Of a stretch of 64,000 bases of DNA, positions 54,684-61,974 are shown one piece after another. Location: NCBI GenBank assembly GCA_017518735.1, contig JAFWTY010000008.1:62001-126000 (forward strand). Reading direction: 5' to 3'. Source of the DNA: Lachnospiraceae bacterium. Lineage in GTDB: Bacteria; Bacillota; Clostridia; Lachnospirales; Lachnospiraceae. Made by a program: the position numbers and the translations under genes. Position 1 is the stretch's first letter. Every line of letters starts with the position of its first letter. Under the pieces are notes generated by a model. That model ran no database searches. It was not told the origin of the DNA and saw only the letters and a program-made list of their open reading frames with translations.

Positions 54684-55106
54684 TTAATCCAGATCCTGAT
54701 AAGTGCCTTTTCTCTTTAAGCGCAGACGGGACATTTCACGCTCTATACGAAGACGGCTTGCACGGAATTCGCGGATGCTCTGCTGACGGAGCATTTCTTC
54801 CTTCTCTTCTTCCATTGCATGACGCGCACGGTTTTCATCGATCTCTTCGGGACGTTCCGCGGTAACTGCCAGAATCAGTACCTGATTGTCCTCCATTAAG
54901 AAGGTTCCGTTACTGATGGCCGCATAAACCTTACCTTCTCCCGGCACGATGAATTCCAGAATACCCGGAACAATCGCCGCGATCGTATTCTGATGATCCG
55001 CCAGGATTCCGTAGTGACCGTCGGAAATCGGCAAAATCAGCGATTCGCAGGGACCGTCGTAGAAGGTTTTTTCTGCAGTTAGAATTTTCAAATCAAATGT
55101 CTTCAA
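54684..55106 (-). CDS. atpC: ATP synthase epsilon subunit
   Basis: 140 residues. The N-terminal beta-barrel (LKILTAEKTFYDGPCESLILP, GHYGILADHQNTIAAIVPG) and the C-terminal two-helix hairpin (AEERPEEI-like start, then ARHAMEEEKEEMLRQQ) match epsilon. It belongs to the rotating central stalk and damps ATP hydrolysis. I use the TTG at 55104-55106, eight bases after AAAGGA; the GTG two codons earlier lies too close to that site. Confidence 0.94.
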   Translation of the reverse strand: MKTFDLKILTAEKTFYDGPCESLILPISDGHYGILADHQNTIAAIVPGILEFIVPGEGKVYAAISNGTFLMEDNQVLILAVTAERPEEIDENRARHAMEEEKEEMLRQQSIREFRASRLRIEREMSRLRLKRKGTYQDLD

Positions 55107-55131
55107 ATGCACTGTCCTTTATTACTACTGA

Positions 55132-56553
<1,422 letters not shown>

Positions 56554-57531
56554 TTATGACTCTTCCGATTCGTTTTCTTTTGCCATTTTTTCCTGCAACA
56601 TACGAATCAGTTCTTTCTGACGATTCAGCGCCTTTCTCTCGCGCTTTCTCTTCATGGCTTTTGCGCCGGCGGAAATCTCTGTGATTTCCTGTGTAATCAT
56701 CGCCTGTCTGGTGTGATTGTACTGCACACGCAGGTCGTTTAAGATTTCCTGCGAGTTGCGGTTTGCCGAATCCATTGCGTTCATACGTGCGCTCTGCTCC
56801 GACGCAAAACTGTCCACCAGCGCACCGTAAACAATACCGAGCACGTAACTTTCAATGGTATTATCCAGCACTTCACTCAAGTTCGGCATGAACTTAAACG
56901 GCGTTTTGACTTCTCTTTCCCATGCGGGAGGCGCGATGTTAAAATCGGCCTTATGGAAAGGCAAAAGACGCATCACCTGCGCTTCCTCGGTAAAGGAATT
57001 CTGATAGTCCGTAAAAATAACATACATTTTGGTAATCTCACCGTTGTCATACTTTTCAAGCAGAACATTGGTGATTTCTCTGGCACGGGAAAGGTTCGGA
57101 TCCTGTGCTGTATAACGGAACGACTGCTCGATCGGAATGTGGTGCGTCGTAAAATAATGTCTTCCGCACTCGCCGACGACAAAAAGCAGATTGTCGTCAT
57201 GTTCTCCCATCATGCGCATCGCTTCCTTGATTACGTTCTGGTTATAAGCTCCGGCAAGTCCCTTATCCGCGGTAATTACGAGATAACCCCACGTTCCCTC
57301 CAGTTCTTCCATAACACCCTTCGGGAAAAAATAGCGGCTGTGTACGTTTTCATCGATACGGAAAATTCTCTTGATCTCGTGAGAAACCGCATCAAAATAG
57401 GGACGTGTGGCTTCGAAGTTCTTTCTTGCCTTACGCAACTTCGTAGAGGAAATCAAATACATCGCACTCGTGATTTTTCTGGTATCCTGTACGCTCTTTA
57501 TTCGGTTTTTAATTTCCTTGATACTGGACAT
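56554..57531 (-). CDS. atpG: ATP synthase gamma subunit with 32-residue C-terminal extension
   Basis: 325 residues against about 285-290 usually. The N-terminal helix (IKEIKNRIKSVQDTRKITSAM) and the C-terminal helix (YNHTRQAMITQEITEISAGA) that form the rotor coiled coil are present. After the usual end near residue 293 come 32 extra residues, strongly basic then acidic (KRKRERKALNRQKELIRMLQ and beyond), predicted as one more helix. In known F1 structures this end sits at the top of the alpha/beta ring, near delta. Its ATG shares a base with the alpha stop (TAATG). Confidence 0.93.
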   Translation of the reverse strand: MSSIKEIKNRIKSVQDTRKITSAMYLISSTKLRKARKNFEATRPYFDAVSHEIKRIFRIDENVHSRYFFPKGVMEELEGTWGYLVITADKGLAGAYNQNVIKEAMRMMGEHDDNLLFVVGECGRHYFTTHHIPIEQSFRYTAQDPNLSRAREITNVLLEKYDNGEITKMYVIFTDYQNSFTEEAQVMRLLPFHKADFNIAPPAWEREVKTPFKFMPNLSEVLDNTIESYVLGIVYGALVDSFASEQSARMNAMDSANRNSQEILNDLRVQYNHTRQAMITQEITEISAGAKAMKRKRERKALNRQKELIRMLQEKMAKENESEES

Positions 57532-59273
57532 TAAAAGCCTTTCTTCGTCATGAATTCCTTGGCAACGGAAAGGATTTCCGCTCTGATTTCATCGTCTAAG
57601 GTCTCGCTTCCGTGGATACGGTCTGCTATATCACGACGGTTTGTCTCAAAATAAGTAAGCATTTCTTCCGCAACCTTGTTGATCTGCTTTTCCGGCACCG
57701 GAACAAACATTTTTCCGAGGGCTGCCACAAGAAGAATAACCTCCTGCTCACCGGAGTAAGGGCTGTACTGTTTCTGTCTTAAGATACGCATCAGGCCCTT
57801 GCCGTAAAGAAGCTGGTTCTTGGTTGCATCATCCAGGTCGGATGAGAACTGTGTAAAGACTTCCATTTCACGGAACTGTGCCAAATCCAGACGCAAGGTT
57901 CCGGTTGCCTTCTTCATCGCCTTCGTCTGCGCATCGCCGCCTACACGGGATACGGAAAGACCGACGTTAACCGCGGGACGCTGACCTTCGAAGAAAAGTG
58001 CCGTCTCCAGGAAAATCTGTCCGTCGGTAATGGAAATGATATTGGTCGGAATATAGGCGGAAACGTCACCGGCCTGTGTTTCCACGATCGGAAGTGCCGT
58101 CATGGAACCTCCGCCCAGGTCGTCACTTAAGTGTGCGGCACGCTCCAGCAGTCTGGAATGCAGGTAGAATACGTCACCGGGATAAGCTTCACGTCCCGGG
58201 GAACGATCCAGCAGAAGACTTAAGGAACGATATGCGATGGCATGCTTCGACAGATCATCGTAAATGATTAAAACGTCCTGACCGTTTCGCATGAAATATT
58301 CACCGAGTGCACAGCCTGCATAAGGTGCAATATATTGAACAGGCGCTGCTTCCGATGCGGAAGCGTTGACGATGATGGTATATTCCATCGCGCCTTTGTT
58401 TTTCAAATTGTTTACGAGCTGGGCTACGCTCGATGCTTTTTGGCCGATGGCTACGTAAATGCAGACAACGTCCTTGCCCTTCTGATTCGTAATGGTATCC
58501 AGTGCAATTGCGGTTTTACCGGTCTGGCGGTCACCAATGATCAATTCTCTTTGTCCGCGGCCGATCGGGAACATGGAGTCGATGGAAAGGATTCCGGTCT
58601 CCATGGGACGGTTTACGGGCTGACGGTCAATGATACCGGGTGCCTCGCTTTCAATCGGATAATACTCCTTCGATTCAATGGTTCCTCGTCCGTCAATCGG
58701 CTCACCGAGCGGGTTAACGACTCTTCCCAAGAAATTCTGTCCGACCGGAATACCTGCCGTTTTGCCGGTACGATAAACGCTGCTGCCTTCCATAATCGGA
58801 GCATCGTCCGAAAAAAGAATACAGCCGACTTCGTCGTGTCGAAGTTCCAAAACCATACCGCGAATACCGTCGGTAAAAATCAGGATTTCTCCGTACGTAA
58901 CATTCTCCAGACCTTCGACGGTTGCGATTCCGTCACCTACCGTAAGAACGGTACCGACTTCACGTGCAATCGCGGAAGGCGTCCAGGAATGTACGGTTTC
59001 CTTCATCAGAGGAATGACGTTATCCGATCTTTTTGCCAGATATTCAAGCTTCTCACGAAGCTGTTCAAATTTACCTTCTTTACTCCAGTCGTAGACATCG
59101 TTTCCGATCTCTAAACGGAATCCGCCGGGAAATTCCTTGGAATGTACCCAGGATACGGAAATCTCCTTCTCGTACTTCTCGGAAAGGAATTTGACAAATC
59201 CTTCCATTTGCGCATCGGTAGGAGCTTTTTCCGAATACAGATATGCTCTGGTATTACTGCTTAAACTACTCAT
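57531..59273 (-). CDS. atpA: ATP synthase alpha subunit with N-terminal delta-like (OSCP C-terminal) domain
   Basis: 580 residues against about 500-510 usually. From about residue 104 (REVGTVLTVGDGIATVEGL) it is an ordinary alpha subunit with P-loop GDRQTGKTA and SRVGG near the arginine finger. Residues 8-78 do not belong to alpha. They read like the C-terminal domain of delta: AYLYSEKAPTDAQ, then EKYEKEISVSWV, FPGGFRLEIGNDVYDWS and KFEQLREKL, matching the family pattern of GGFxxxIGDxVYDxS and a closing helix. No atpH gene exists between atpF and this gene. The ATG overlaps the atpF end by eight bases. The usual short alpha N-terminal helix that binds delta is replaced by this domain. Confidence 0.9.
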   Translation of the reverse strand: MSSLSSNTRAYLYSEKAPTDAQMEGFVKFLSEKYEKEISVSWVHSKEFPGGFRLEIGNDVYDWSKEGKFEQLREKLEYLAKRSDNVIPLMKETVHSWTPSAIAREVGTVLTVGDGIATVEGLENVTYGEILIFTDGIRGMVLELRHDEVGCILFSDDAPIMEGSSVYRTGKTAGIPVGQNFLGRVVNPLGEPIDGRGTIESKEYYPIESEAPGIIDRQPVNRPMETGILSIDSMFPIGRGQRELIIGDRQTGKTAIALDTITNQKGKDVVCIYVAIGQKASSVAQLVNNLKNKGAMEYTIIVNASASEAAPVQYIAPYAGCALGEYFMRNGQDVLIIYDDLSKHAIAYRSLSLLLDRSPGREAYPGDVFYLHSRLLERAAHLSDDLGGGSMTALPIVETQAGDVSAYIPTNIISITDGQIFLETALFFEGQRPAVNVGLSVSRVGGDAQTKAMKKATGTLRLDLAQFREMEVFTQFSSDLDDATKNQLLYGKGLMRILRQKQYSPYSGEQEVILLVAALGKMFVPVPEKQINKVAEEMLTYFETNRRDIADRIHGSETLDDEIRAEILSVAKEFMTKKGF

Positions 59274-59760
59274 TCTTTGCGTTTCCTTCCGCGCTCTTTA
59301 AGAACTCATCATAACTCTTCGATACATCGGCACTGAGCACAATCTTTTCGGTTGCGGTCGTGACGATATCCGCAATTTCTCTCTGTGCTTCGGCAATGAT
59401 CTTGTCATGTTCCAGTTCGCCACGTTTCTTTGCAGCTTCCACGATGGTCACGGCTTCTGCCTTGGCCTGCTCGATTACTCTTGCACGCTCTTCGGCATTC
59501 TTCGTGCCGGCTTCCGTCTTCATAGCGGCAATTTCTTCCTCGGCACCTGCGATTTTTTCTTCGTATTCCGCCTTGGTCTTTTCCGCGTCTGCGAGCGCCT
59601 GTTCGGCATCGTCATGCTGTTTCTTGTAGCCTGCTTCTCTCTTTTCCATAAAGTCCTTAACGGGCTTGTAAAGGAAGAAATACAGTGCAGCAAACAGAAT
59701 TGTGAAATTCAATAAATGCAGCAAAATCTGCTGCCAGTCAATATTCAAAGGCACTTTCAT
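59266..59760 (-). CDS. atpF: ATP synthase b subunit
   Basis: 164 residues. One membrane helix (about 10-30, LLHLLNFTILFAALYFFLY) followed by a long charged coiled coil rich in Ala/Glu/Lys. It forms the outer stalk that ties the membrane part to F1. In other synthases its end contacts the delta subunit, which is missing here as a separate gene. GGAGAG precedes the ATG. Confidence 0.95.
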   Translation of the reverse strand: MKVPLNIDWQQILLHLLNFTILFAALYFFLYKPVKDFMEKREAGYKKQHDDAEQALADAEKTKAEYEEKIAGAEEEIAAMKTEAGTKNAEERARVIEQAKAEAVTIVEAAKKRGELEHDKIIAEAQREIADIVTTATEKIVLSADVSKSYDEFLKSAEGNAKNE

Positions 59761-59781: not shown

Positions 59782-60159
59782 TTATAAAACGAATACAATC
59801 AAAATGGTTACAACCAATGCATAAATAACAACGGTCTCGATAAATACCATACCGAGCATCCACAGAGACTGGATTTTTCCGCTTGCTTCAGGCTGTCTGG
59901 AAATACCTTCCACGGACTTTGCAACACCGATACCCATTGCAAGTGCACCGAGTGCTGCGGGAAGACCGATTGCAATCGCTGCTGCCAGTGCTTTCATAGC
60001 GGTGGTGGATAATTTGTAGTTAGTATCACCTGCTTCTACGATTTCATATGCGTTTCCTTCTTCACCTTCCGCTGCTTTCGCCTTCATGGGGATAAGTGCA
60101 ACACCTGCAATTACAAATAACAGAAGAACTGCTGCCAATAATTTCGCTAATTTTTTCAT
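59782..60159 (-). CDS. atpE: ATP synthase c subunit with signal peptide
   Basis: 125 residues against about 70-90 usually. The first 29 residues (MKKLAKLLAAVLLLFVIAG, ending PMKAKA) are a classical Sec signal peptide with an AxA-type cut site. An acidic spacer (about 30-50) leads to the two-helix c hairpin: AAAIAIGLPAALGALAMG, the polar loop SRQPEA, and GMVFIETVVIYALV with the ion-binding Glu. Since the c N-terminus faces outward, cleavage of a signal peptide would give the right topology. The Glu is followed by Thr, as in some sodium-dependent rings, but the helix-one Gln of those rings appears as Met. The start overlaps the atpB stop (ATGA). Confidence 0.93.
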   Translation of the reverse strand: MKKLAKLLAAVLLLFVIAGVALIPMKAKAAEGEEGNAYEIVEAGDTNYKLSTTAMKALAAAIAIGLPAALGALAMGIGVAKSVEGISRQPEASGKIQSLWMLGMVFIETVVIYALVVTILIVFVL

Positions 60160-61028
60160 TTGGATACCTCCGGAGTAATTGTATTATTTGAATTCTTCTT
60201 TTCTTTTCTGAATCTACGCGGTTTTTCCAGTTTCTTCTCGGAAACCTCTCCGTAGAAGATGGAAACCAGAAGCGTTAGTACGTATGCCTGAATCAGTGCA
60301 TGCAACAGTGTGAAGAGTACACCGACGATAACAGGCAGGACAAAACTTAACGACATCGAGTAATATACAAGTTCCGTAACCAGCGCACCGGAAAGCAGGG
60401 CACCGAAGAGACGGAAGCTCATGGAAAGCGGAAGAGAAAACTCTTTGAGAGTTCCCAGGATTCCATGCCAGCCGTTGTTTACGATACCGCCTCCTAAGAT
60501 AAATAAATAGGAAAGGCCACCCATTGCAATCGCGCCGTTAATATCGGACAAGGGTGCCGGGAGCGATACCGGTGATCCGCTTGTGGTAATGACCTGAACA
60601 CCAAAGAGTTCGAAGATGGTTCCCACAAAAATGTATACACCCGCCGTAAAAATGTATGCACTCAAAACCTGATTTTTCTCCGGGGAATTGGACTTTGCAA
60701 GCCCTCGGAAAATACCTACCAGCGATTCCAGTATCATCTGAAACTTTCCGGGAATCTCCTTAAACCTCGGAATGACGAAAATTCTGCAAAAAATTGCAAA
60801 AAGCGTCAAAACCCCGGTTACGGTAAACGCGGAAATCAATCCCGGATTTACTTCCATGAAGCCGAACAGATCCACTTTCATGGTTTCATGAAGCACCGCA
60901 TCTTTCATGGTCTCACCCAAAGTCTCCGCTCGAGGTGCGGGTTTTCCGAGTAGCAAGATTCCGACATAAAGTGCGATAATGATGACGAGAAAAATCGCAA
61001 AAGTAACTATGCTTTTTTTCTTACTCAT
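60156..61028 (-). CDS. atpB: ATP synthase a subunit
   Basis: 290 residues. After a basic start and a first helix come an outward segment and five further helices. The essential arginine lies in SFRLFGALLSGAL, and the last helices contain LLHALIQAYVLTLL with the conserved Gln. It forms the ion path against the c ring. The ATG at 61026-61028 has AAGGAG ten bases upstream. It follows trmB by 16 bases, so the atp operon is probably read from the trmB message; no atpI is seen. Confidence 0.94.
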   Translation of the reverse strand: MSKKKSIVTFAIFLVIIIALYVGILLLGKPAPRAETLGETMKDAVLHETMKVDLFGFMEVNPGLISAFTVTGVLTLFAIFCRIFVIPRFKEIPGKFQMILESLVGIFRGLAKSNSPEKNQVLSAYIFTAGVYIFVGTIFELFGVQVITTSGSPVSLPAPLSDINGAIAMGGLSYLFILGGGIVNNGWHGILGTLKEFSLPLSMSFRLFGALLSGALVTELVYYSMSLSFVLPVIVGVLFTLLHALIQAYVLTLLVSIFYGEVSEKKLEKPRRFRKEKKNSNNTITPEVSK

Positions 61029-61816: not shown

Positions 61817-61846
61817 TTGACAACAATTGGCTCCTTTTTGTATAAT
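61817..61846 (+). promoter_or_regulatory. promoter of tRNA-Ser
   Basis: Perfect TTGACA (61817-61822), 18-base spacer, perfect TATAAT (61841-61846), 40 bases before the tRNA. Confidence 0.93.
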
Positions 61847-61886
61847 CGTATTTGCGCGAATGGAAAAAGCGCGGTTCGGATTGCGA

Positions 61887-61974
61887 GGAGAAGTACTCAA
61901 GAGGCCGAAGAGGCGCCCCTGCTAAGGGTGTAGGTCGGGCAACCGGCGCGAGGGTTCAAATCCCTCCTTCTCCG
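61887..61974 (+). tRNA. tRNA-Ser (anticodon GCU)
   Basis: 88 bases, a class II tRNA with a long variable arm. Acceptor GGAGAAG/CTTCTCC with discriminator G, anticodon loop CTGCTAA with GCT at 61921-61923, variable arm GTCGGGCAACCGGC, and T arm GAGGGTTCAAATCCCTC. It reads AGC and AGU. No CCA is encoded. Confidence 0.97.

Follow-up and report, generated by a model that had tools for sequence, protein, structure and literature searches.

A 64,000-nucleotide stretch of a Lachnospiraceae genome (assembly GCA_017518735.1, contig JAFWTY010000008.1, positions 62,001 to 126,000; hereafter the window) encodes an F-type ATP synthase in which the gene atpA, for the alpha subunit, carries the C-terminal domain of the delta subunit directly ahead of alpha, the N-terminal domain of delta having been lost. 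As an F-type enzyme holds three alpha subunits, this deltaC-alpha enzyme would offer three docks for an outer stalk. With moderate confidence, we favor the reading that more than one stalk is likely assembled, each with its own a-subunit, and we predict a larger number of protons moved per ATP than with a single stalk.

The fused gene (57531..59273, minus strand, as are all genes of its operon) is an uninterrupted open reading frame of 580 amino acids from an ATG start, with some 80 to 85 additional N-terminal residues ahead of the usual start of alpha. Fusion residues 8-76 (59046..59252) align with the final 70 positions (103-172 of 172) of the OSCP profile PF00213, scoring 28.8 bits within the whole fused protein and 32.0 bits when residues 1-107 are searched alone, against a cut-off of 22.3. 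The N-terminal helical domain of delta, represented by profile positions 1-102, finds no match in the fused protein, and the equivalog profile for separate delta subunits, TIGR01145, gives residues 1-107 only 24.6 bits (cut-off, 57.5). What follows is a complete alpha subunit, with residues 82-576 scoring 738.1 bits against TIGR00962 (cut-off, 484.45), and it retains the N-terminal helix of alpha (residues 86-96; 58986..59018), which is helical in the models and aligns with the start of alpha in the engineered enzyme 9jc1. As a search with the full-length model brought back alpha chains and is hardly a test of residues 1-55, the delta domain was folded separately, and its predicted fold matches that of solved delta subunits. 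An earlier note, made from the sequence of the window, had read the N-terminal extension as the b-binding half of delta, minus its N-terminal bundle, welded to alpha so that three alphas could present three docking sites; profile and fold both agree with it.

The note was also right about the operon, in which the order is a-c-b-[deltaC-alpha]-gamma-beta-epsilon and a separate delta gene (atpH) is absent. Subunit b (59266..59760; 164 residues, PF00430 at 65.5 bits) is intact, and its frame shares 8 bases with that of the fusion, which leaves no space for a delta gene between the two.

A model for this arrangement comes from protein engineering. Ueno et al. (2025; PMC12229609) report that they removed the N-terminal domain of delta from the Bacillus PS3 enzyme and fused the remainder to alpha. 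By their account, the resulting enzyme carried two stalks on average and up to three, each with an a-subunit, contained 2.2 times as much subunit a and 1.8 times as much subunit b as the wild type, had an H+/ATP ratio of 5.8, and synthesized ATP at about half the threshold proton-motive force. They argue that the N-terminal domain of delta limits the number of stalks by occupying the axis. The window fusion follows the same design, with the C-terminal domain of delta on the N terminus of alpha and the N-terminal domain of delta absent, and as its domain order equals that of the engineered PS3 enzyme, we propose that it is a natural multi-stalk, high-ratio proton gear for low proton-motive force. 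The same paper disposes of the earlier suggestion that the architecture was undescribed, since it names similar natural fusions in addition to the constructed one (Acidaminococcus fermentans, UniProt G4Q3K6, and A0A1I2C5T3).

It can be hypothesized that, without the N-terminal domain of delta, the three-fold axis atop alpha3beta3 would be unoccupied. Once the axis is free, each alpha might bind its own b2 stalk, by analogy with the PS3 enzyme, and each stalk might in turn recruit an a-subunit. The protons moved per turn would then be the number of c-subunits multiplied by the number of a-subunits. Such an enzyme could conceivably make ATP when the proton-motive force is low or, run backward, pump a large number of protons per ATP against a weak one.

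The fusion recurs widely among relatives. Among 31 genomes of the same genus, the window's own included, a long fused frame is found in at least 24, of which 20 also carry a full delta and 4 do not, and the other 7 carry a full delta only. One genome of another genus (G032) also has the fusion in the PF00213 search of 61 relatives (E value, 0.001), in which fusion counts are lower bounds, a fusion in G034 having been missed there and found later. Within the family, sampled as 298 genomes of at least 90% completeness, 115 match an alignment of the fused N terminus at an E value of 1e-10, and inspection of open frames places the fusion in 59, of which 54 were inspected as DNA. Most other matches in the family are separate deltas of approximately 170-200 residues; two rows with long open frames (G681 and G665) turned out, when inspected, to carry a delta of their own and are not counted. 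A further genome of the family, G035, shows four PF00213 matches on contigs C15, C17, and C37, three of them partial, and no match to the fused alignment; it is perhaps a case of an aberrant or split delta.

Scanning the GTDB species collection matched 352 stretches, 238 of them relatives by tblastn, of which the best 80 loci were inspected. Every one of these 80 loci has the delta domain and alpha in one frame, none has a separate delta, and 67 hold all seven operon genes, the other 13 lacking some, mostly at contig ends. Among the names in their titles are Lachnospiraceae, Mogibacterium, Faecalibacterium, Christensenellaceae, and unclassified Clostridia. What is new here is its spread over a broad clostridial lineage. 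A plasmid search listed only alpha-like matches below 80% identity. With the same frame recurring in other assemblies, in 24 of the 31 same-genus genomes and in 80 of the 80 inspected relatives, an artefact of assembly or gene calling, which the earlier note had named as a concern, is already refuted by recurrence, and we give it a negligible chance.

The absence of a separate delta holds for the operon and not for the genome as a whole, where the earlier expectation fails. A full atpH (G000:C1:54056-54571; 166.7 bits), which the earlier note had counted among the findings that would overturn its reading, is present in the same genome, but it is part of another ATP synthase operon, a complete one in the order a-c-b-delta-alpha-gamma-beta-epsilon, with its nearest gene approximately 5.8 kb beyond the left edge of the window. 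This conventional operon encodes a separate delta of 185 residues and an alpha with a normal start. Yet of 34 genomes hand-picked from those of the best 80 loci, 27 have no full delta and 7 have one. In all 27 genomes without a full delta, the fused atpA is the sole atpA at an E value of 1e-100, and two atpA genes are found in each of the four genomes entered with both operons (three of the seven with a full delta and the window's own). These counts bear on the idea that a full delta from the conventional operon serves the fused enzyme as well, capping the hexamer and yielding a one-stalk hybrid. The full delta encoded in the window's own genome makes such borrowing conceivable there, but the 27 relatives with the fused alpha alone, and the 4 of 24 same-genus fusion genomes without a full delta (some of them incomplete), leave it very improbable.

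The two operons also appear to differ in their coupling ion. The Na+ ligand set of the c-subunit has been described as Gln/Glu32, Glu65, Ser/Thr66, and a polar residue at 67 (PMC2359735). It is carried by the c-subunit of the conventional operon, whereas the c-subunit of the fusion operon (59782..60159; PF00137) has Met at 32 and Val at 67 and lacks the complete set. At positions 32, 63, 65, 66, 67, and 70, main-type fusion c-subunits read M-F-E-T-(A/V/L)-Y in all 101 aligned rows (73 unique, the remainder being duplicates), and the c-subunits of conventional operons read (Q/E)-(V/L/I)-E-T-T-Y in 7 of 7. Three fusion genomes (G032, G420, and G191) have another c type, reading I-L-E-A-T-Y. We therefore predict from these residues that the fusion enzyme is coupled to protons and the conventional enzyme to Na+, in which case the two enzymes of this genome might act as different gears on different ions. 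The genome also has one gene of the RnfD/NqrB type and hence probably an ion pump that could feed either synthase. As a separate observation on the c-subunit, that of the fusion operon is 125 residues long against 85 in the conventional operon and begins with a long, hydrophobic presequence resembling a signal peptide (60046-60159); in 79 of 79 loci with a c frame, this frame spans at least 110 amino acids from stop to stop.

Relatives in the family illustrate states on either side of the window fusion. Sixty family loci fall into four states: a separate delta of approximately 166-184 residues (13 loci), a full delta-alpha fusion that keeps the N-terminal domain of delta (18), deltaC-alpha (28), and a b-deltaC-alpha triple fusion (1); two further separate deltas and one further deltaC-alpha lie beyond these 60. 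A further full delta-alpha fusion, likewise beyond the 60, is L136:1222-3291 in genome G420, which encodes 690 residues from a GTG start overlapping the stop codon of b. With its first 200 residues as the query, 695 proteins were matched at an E value of 1e-3 or better, and among the 120 of these that were listed (P0057-P0176), 110 have at least 660 residues, most being full delta-alpha proteins of 670-690 residues and some bearing the names Lachnospira or Eubacterium. The deltaC-alpha loci, in turn, leave no room for the missing domain. In all 28 of these family loci, the fused frame overlaps b or begins no more than 6 bases past it, and it lies within 13 bases of b in 98 of 100 loci inspected earlier, the exceptions (L071 and L118) having gaps of 83 and 211 bases, which are too short for a delta N-terminal domain of approximately 100 residues.

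The distribution of these states suggests how the N-terminal domain of delta was lost. In a quick tree of alpha with 116 rows, the clade of the window's deltaC-alpha is coherent, with 40 rows (one of them b-deltaC-alpha) and a support of 97 in the Shimodaira-Hasegawa-like approximate likelihood-ratio test (SH-aLRT). Other deltaC-alpha rows are scattered among full fusions, giving 11 changes in the presence of the domain, a figure to be read with the tree's lack of a bootstrap and its many weak inner branches, as the starred branches alone force just 3 changes. A single origin was tested and rejected: the tree that holds all rows without the domain as one clade fails the approximately unbiased (AU) test at a p value of 0.0016, these rows having already been seen as scattered in an earlier tree before the test. 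The N-terminal domain of delta was therefore probably lost more than once.

The triple fusion takes the same theme one step further. In genome G577 (96% complete), the operon reads a-c-[b-deltaC-alpha]-gamma-beta-epsilon, and its fused frame encodes 787 residues, or 778 from the first ATG (L244:3156-5489), with PF00430, PF00213, and the alpha domains each above the cut-off. A PF00430 search of this genome matches only the fused chain and finds no second b gene. A second protein cluster, P0177 (781 residues; 34 member sequences on 5 contigs), found in a search that scored only the 7990 best word-sharing candidates, has the same domains and is 97% identical to the G577 chain over the 250 residues searched, which makes an accident of a single assembly unlikely. 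If the chain remains uncut, such an enzyme would hold three b subunits per alpha3 against the textbook two.

With these states in hand, the number of stalks can be weighed. The principal rival to several stalks is that only one delta domain binds b2, for reasons of sterics or supply, leaving two docks idle, with the fusion serving to secure the contact between delta and alpha and to guarantee one delta per enzyme. The sequences are also compatible with a single stalk and two idle docks, and a number of observations lean toward that arrangement and against the multi-stalk proposal. The operon has one gene each for a and b, as in one-stalk enzymes, so these subunits would need to be produced in excess. 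Full delta-alpha fusions are frequent within this lineage (18 of the 60 family loci), and as only one N-terminal domain fits the axis, surplus delta domains seem to be tolerated there; fusion alone, then, does not require several stalks. Cryo-electron microscopy reportedly showed few three-stalk particles even for the engineered enzyme (PMC12229609). A further point against the multi-stalk proposal is that the fusion is rare across the phylum: 61 of 398 genomes drawn match the fused N-terminal alignment, and long fused frames were seen in 5 of the 398 among the matches listed, other matches being separate deltas or unlisted.

A basic C-terminal tail of gamma, considered as a filler of the space of the missing delta domain, likewise lends the proposal no support. 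A Lys/Arg-rich extension is present in fusion operons (with a net positive charge at 81 of 87 unique readable ends; in the window it is 36 residues long, at 56557-56664) and missing in 7 of 7 canonical operons, but relatives with a separate delta carry it too (12 of 12 readable). As the tail is found with or without the fusion, it is a mark of the lineage and not tied to the fusion.

Against idle docks stand three points: the engineered enzyme of the same layout is reported to have carried two stalks on average, judged by gel and by H+/ATP (PMC12229609), the N-terminal domain, which reportedly restrains stalk number, was probably lost on more than one occasion, and b-deltaC-alpha would yield three b subunits where one stalk needs two. 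On balance, we regard the idle-dock explanation as rather unlikely, though the most serious of the alternatives.

The count of docks would also fall if plain alpha were made alongside the fusion, through an internal start or cleavage of the delta domain, so that each enzyme held a single fused alpha and was otherwise conventional. Proteolysis might occur, and the linker of 27 of 86 relatives has a start codon accompanied by a Shine-Dalgarno-like match. No such start occurs in the window's gene, however, and the positions differ among the relatives. The junction is not enriched in start sites either, with 29 of 86 against 7 to 59 of 86 in 13 other windows of the same genes, and we consider such mixing of alphas improbable.

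We return to the multi-stalk proposal in its broader form, which would have a gut lineage of Clostridia running natural three-armed synthases. In such a lineage, delta would have been fused to alpha, the N-terminal domain of delta lost repeatedly, and b welded on in one branch, so that each alpha would bring its own arm and with it an a-subunit, to give a high-ratio proton gear for low proton-motive force that is sometimes paired with a Na+ synthase. We offer this as a tentative picture, with chances slightly short of even.

The remaining genes of the window operon follow the order shared with relatives. Subunit a (60156..61028; PF00119 at 66.2 bits) has 290 residues from its ATG, or 301 from an outer TTG start. 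Downstream of the fusion lie gamma (56554..57531; 325 residues), beta (55132..56532; 466 residues), and epsilon (54684..55112; 142 residues). Elsewhere in the window, a perfect match to a sigma-70-like promoter (TTGACA, a spacing of 18, and TATAAT) stands just upstream of a tRNA-Ser(gct) gene at 61887-61974, the two together spanning 61817-61974.

Quoted H+/ATP ratios assume that each F-ATP synthase has one outer stalk and one a-subunit, an assumption that the engineered enzyme broke in 2025. That natural multi-stalk enzymes may exist was suggested by the authors of the engineered one (PMC12229609), and the lineage described here makes the idea testable, with hundreds of candidate sequences, cultured Faecalibacterium carriers, genomes in which the fused atpA is the sole one, and relatives keeping the N-terminal domain of delta as built-in controls. 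One of the cultured carriers, Faecalibacterium gallinarum JCM 17207, has the fusion at L122 and possesses a conventional operon as well. In the b-deltaC-alpha member, the gene itself would set the number of arms at three per enzyme. If the proposal is true, the stoichiometry of ions to ATP evolved through added stators as well as through changes in c-ring size, and proton gradients considered too weak for ATP synthesis would be a source of energy for many gut anaerobes.

Comparison with known systems places the window fusion in perspective. Our searches of the PMC literature for the fusion and for papers citing Ueno et al., judged by titles and the starts of abstracts, found no other description of a delta-alpha fusion in a collection that lacks most subscription papers and all bioRxiv preprints; within those searches, the series of full delta-alpha fusions, the b-deltaC-alpha fusion, and the lineage distribution are unreported. 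N-ATPases share an operon without a separate delta, but assignment to this class was rejected, as the alternate-alpha profile TIGR03324 gives 611.3 bits against a cut-off of 750.5 and the gene order is a-c-b-alpha-gamma-beta-epsilon, not beta-epsilon-...-a-c-b-alpha-gamma. The b-delta fusion described for mycobacteria and Gordonia (PMC5709465) likewise joins delta to another subunit; there the partner is b and here it is alpha, and the G577 chain joins b, deltaC, and alpha. The canonical F-type synthase, represented by the second operon of the same genome, has a, c, b, alpha, gamma, beta, and epsilon in the same order but possesses the separate delta, the Na+ ligand set in c, and the normally starting alpha that the fusion operon lacks.

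Closest among natural enzymes is the Acidaminococcus fermentans synthase, which, as described in PMC12229609, is also a delta-alpha fusion without the N-terminal domain of delta; the account given there, in the part considered here, makes no mention of a second operon, full delta-alpha, or b-deltaC-alpha. Closest in design is the engineered PS3 delta-deltaN-alpha FoF1 (PDB 9jc1), which, like the window fusion, puts the C-terminal domain of delta directly ahead of the N-terminal helix of alpha and lacks the N-terminal domain of delta. The PS3 enzyme is artificial, with an added linker and a truncated epsilon, whereas the window fusion is natural and has a linker of its own.
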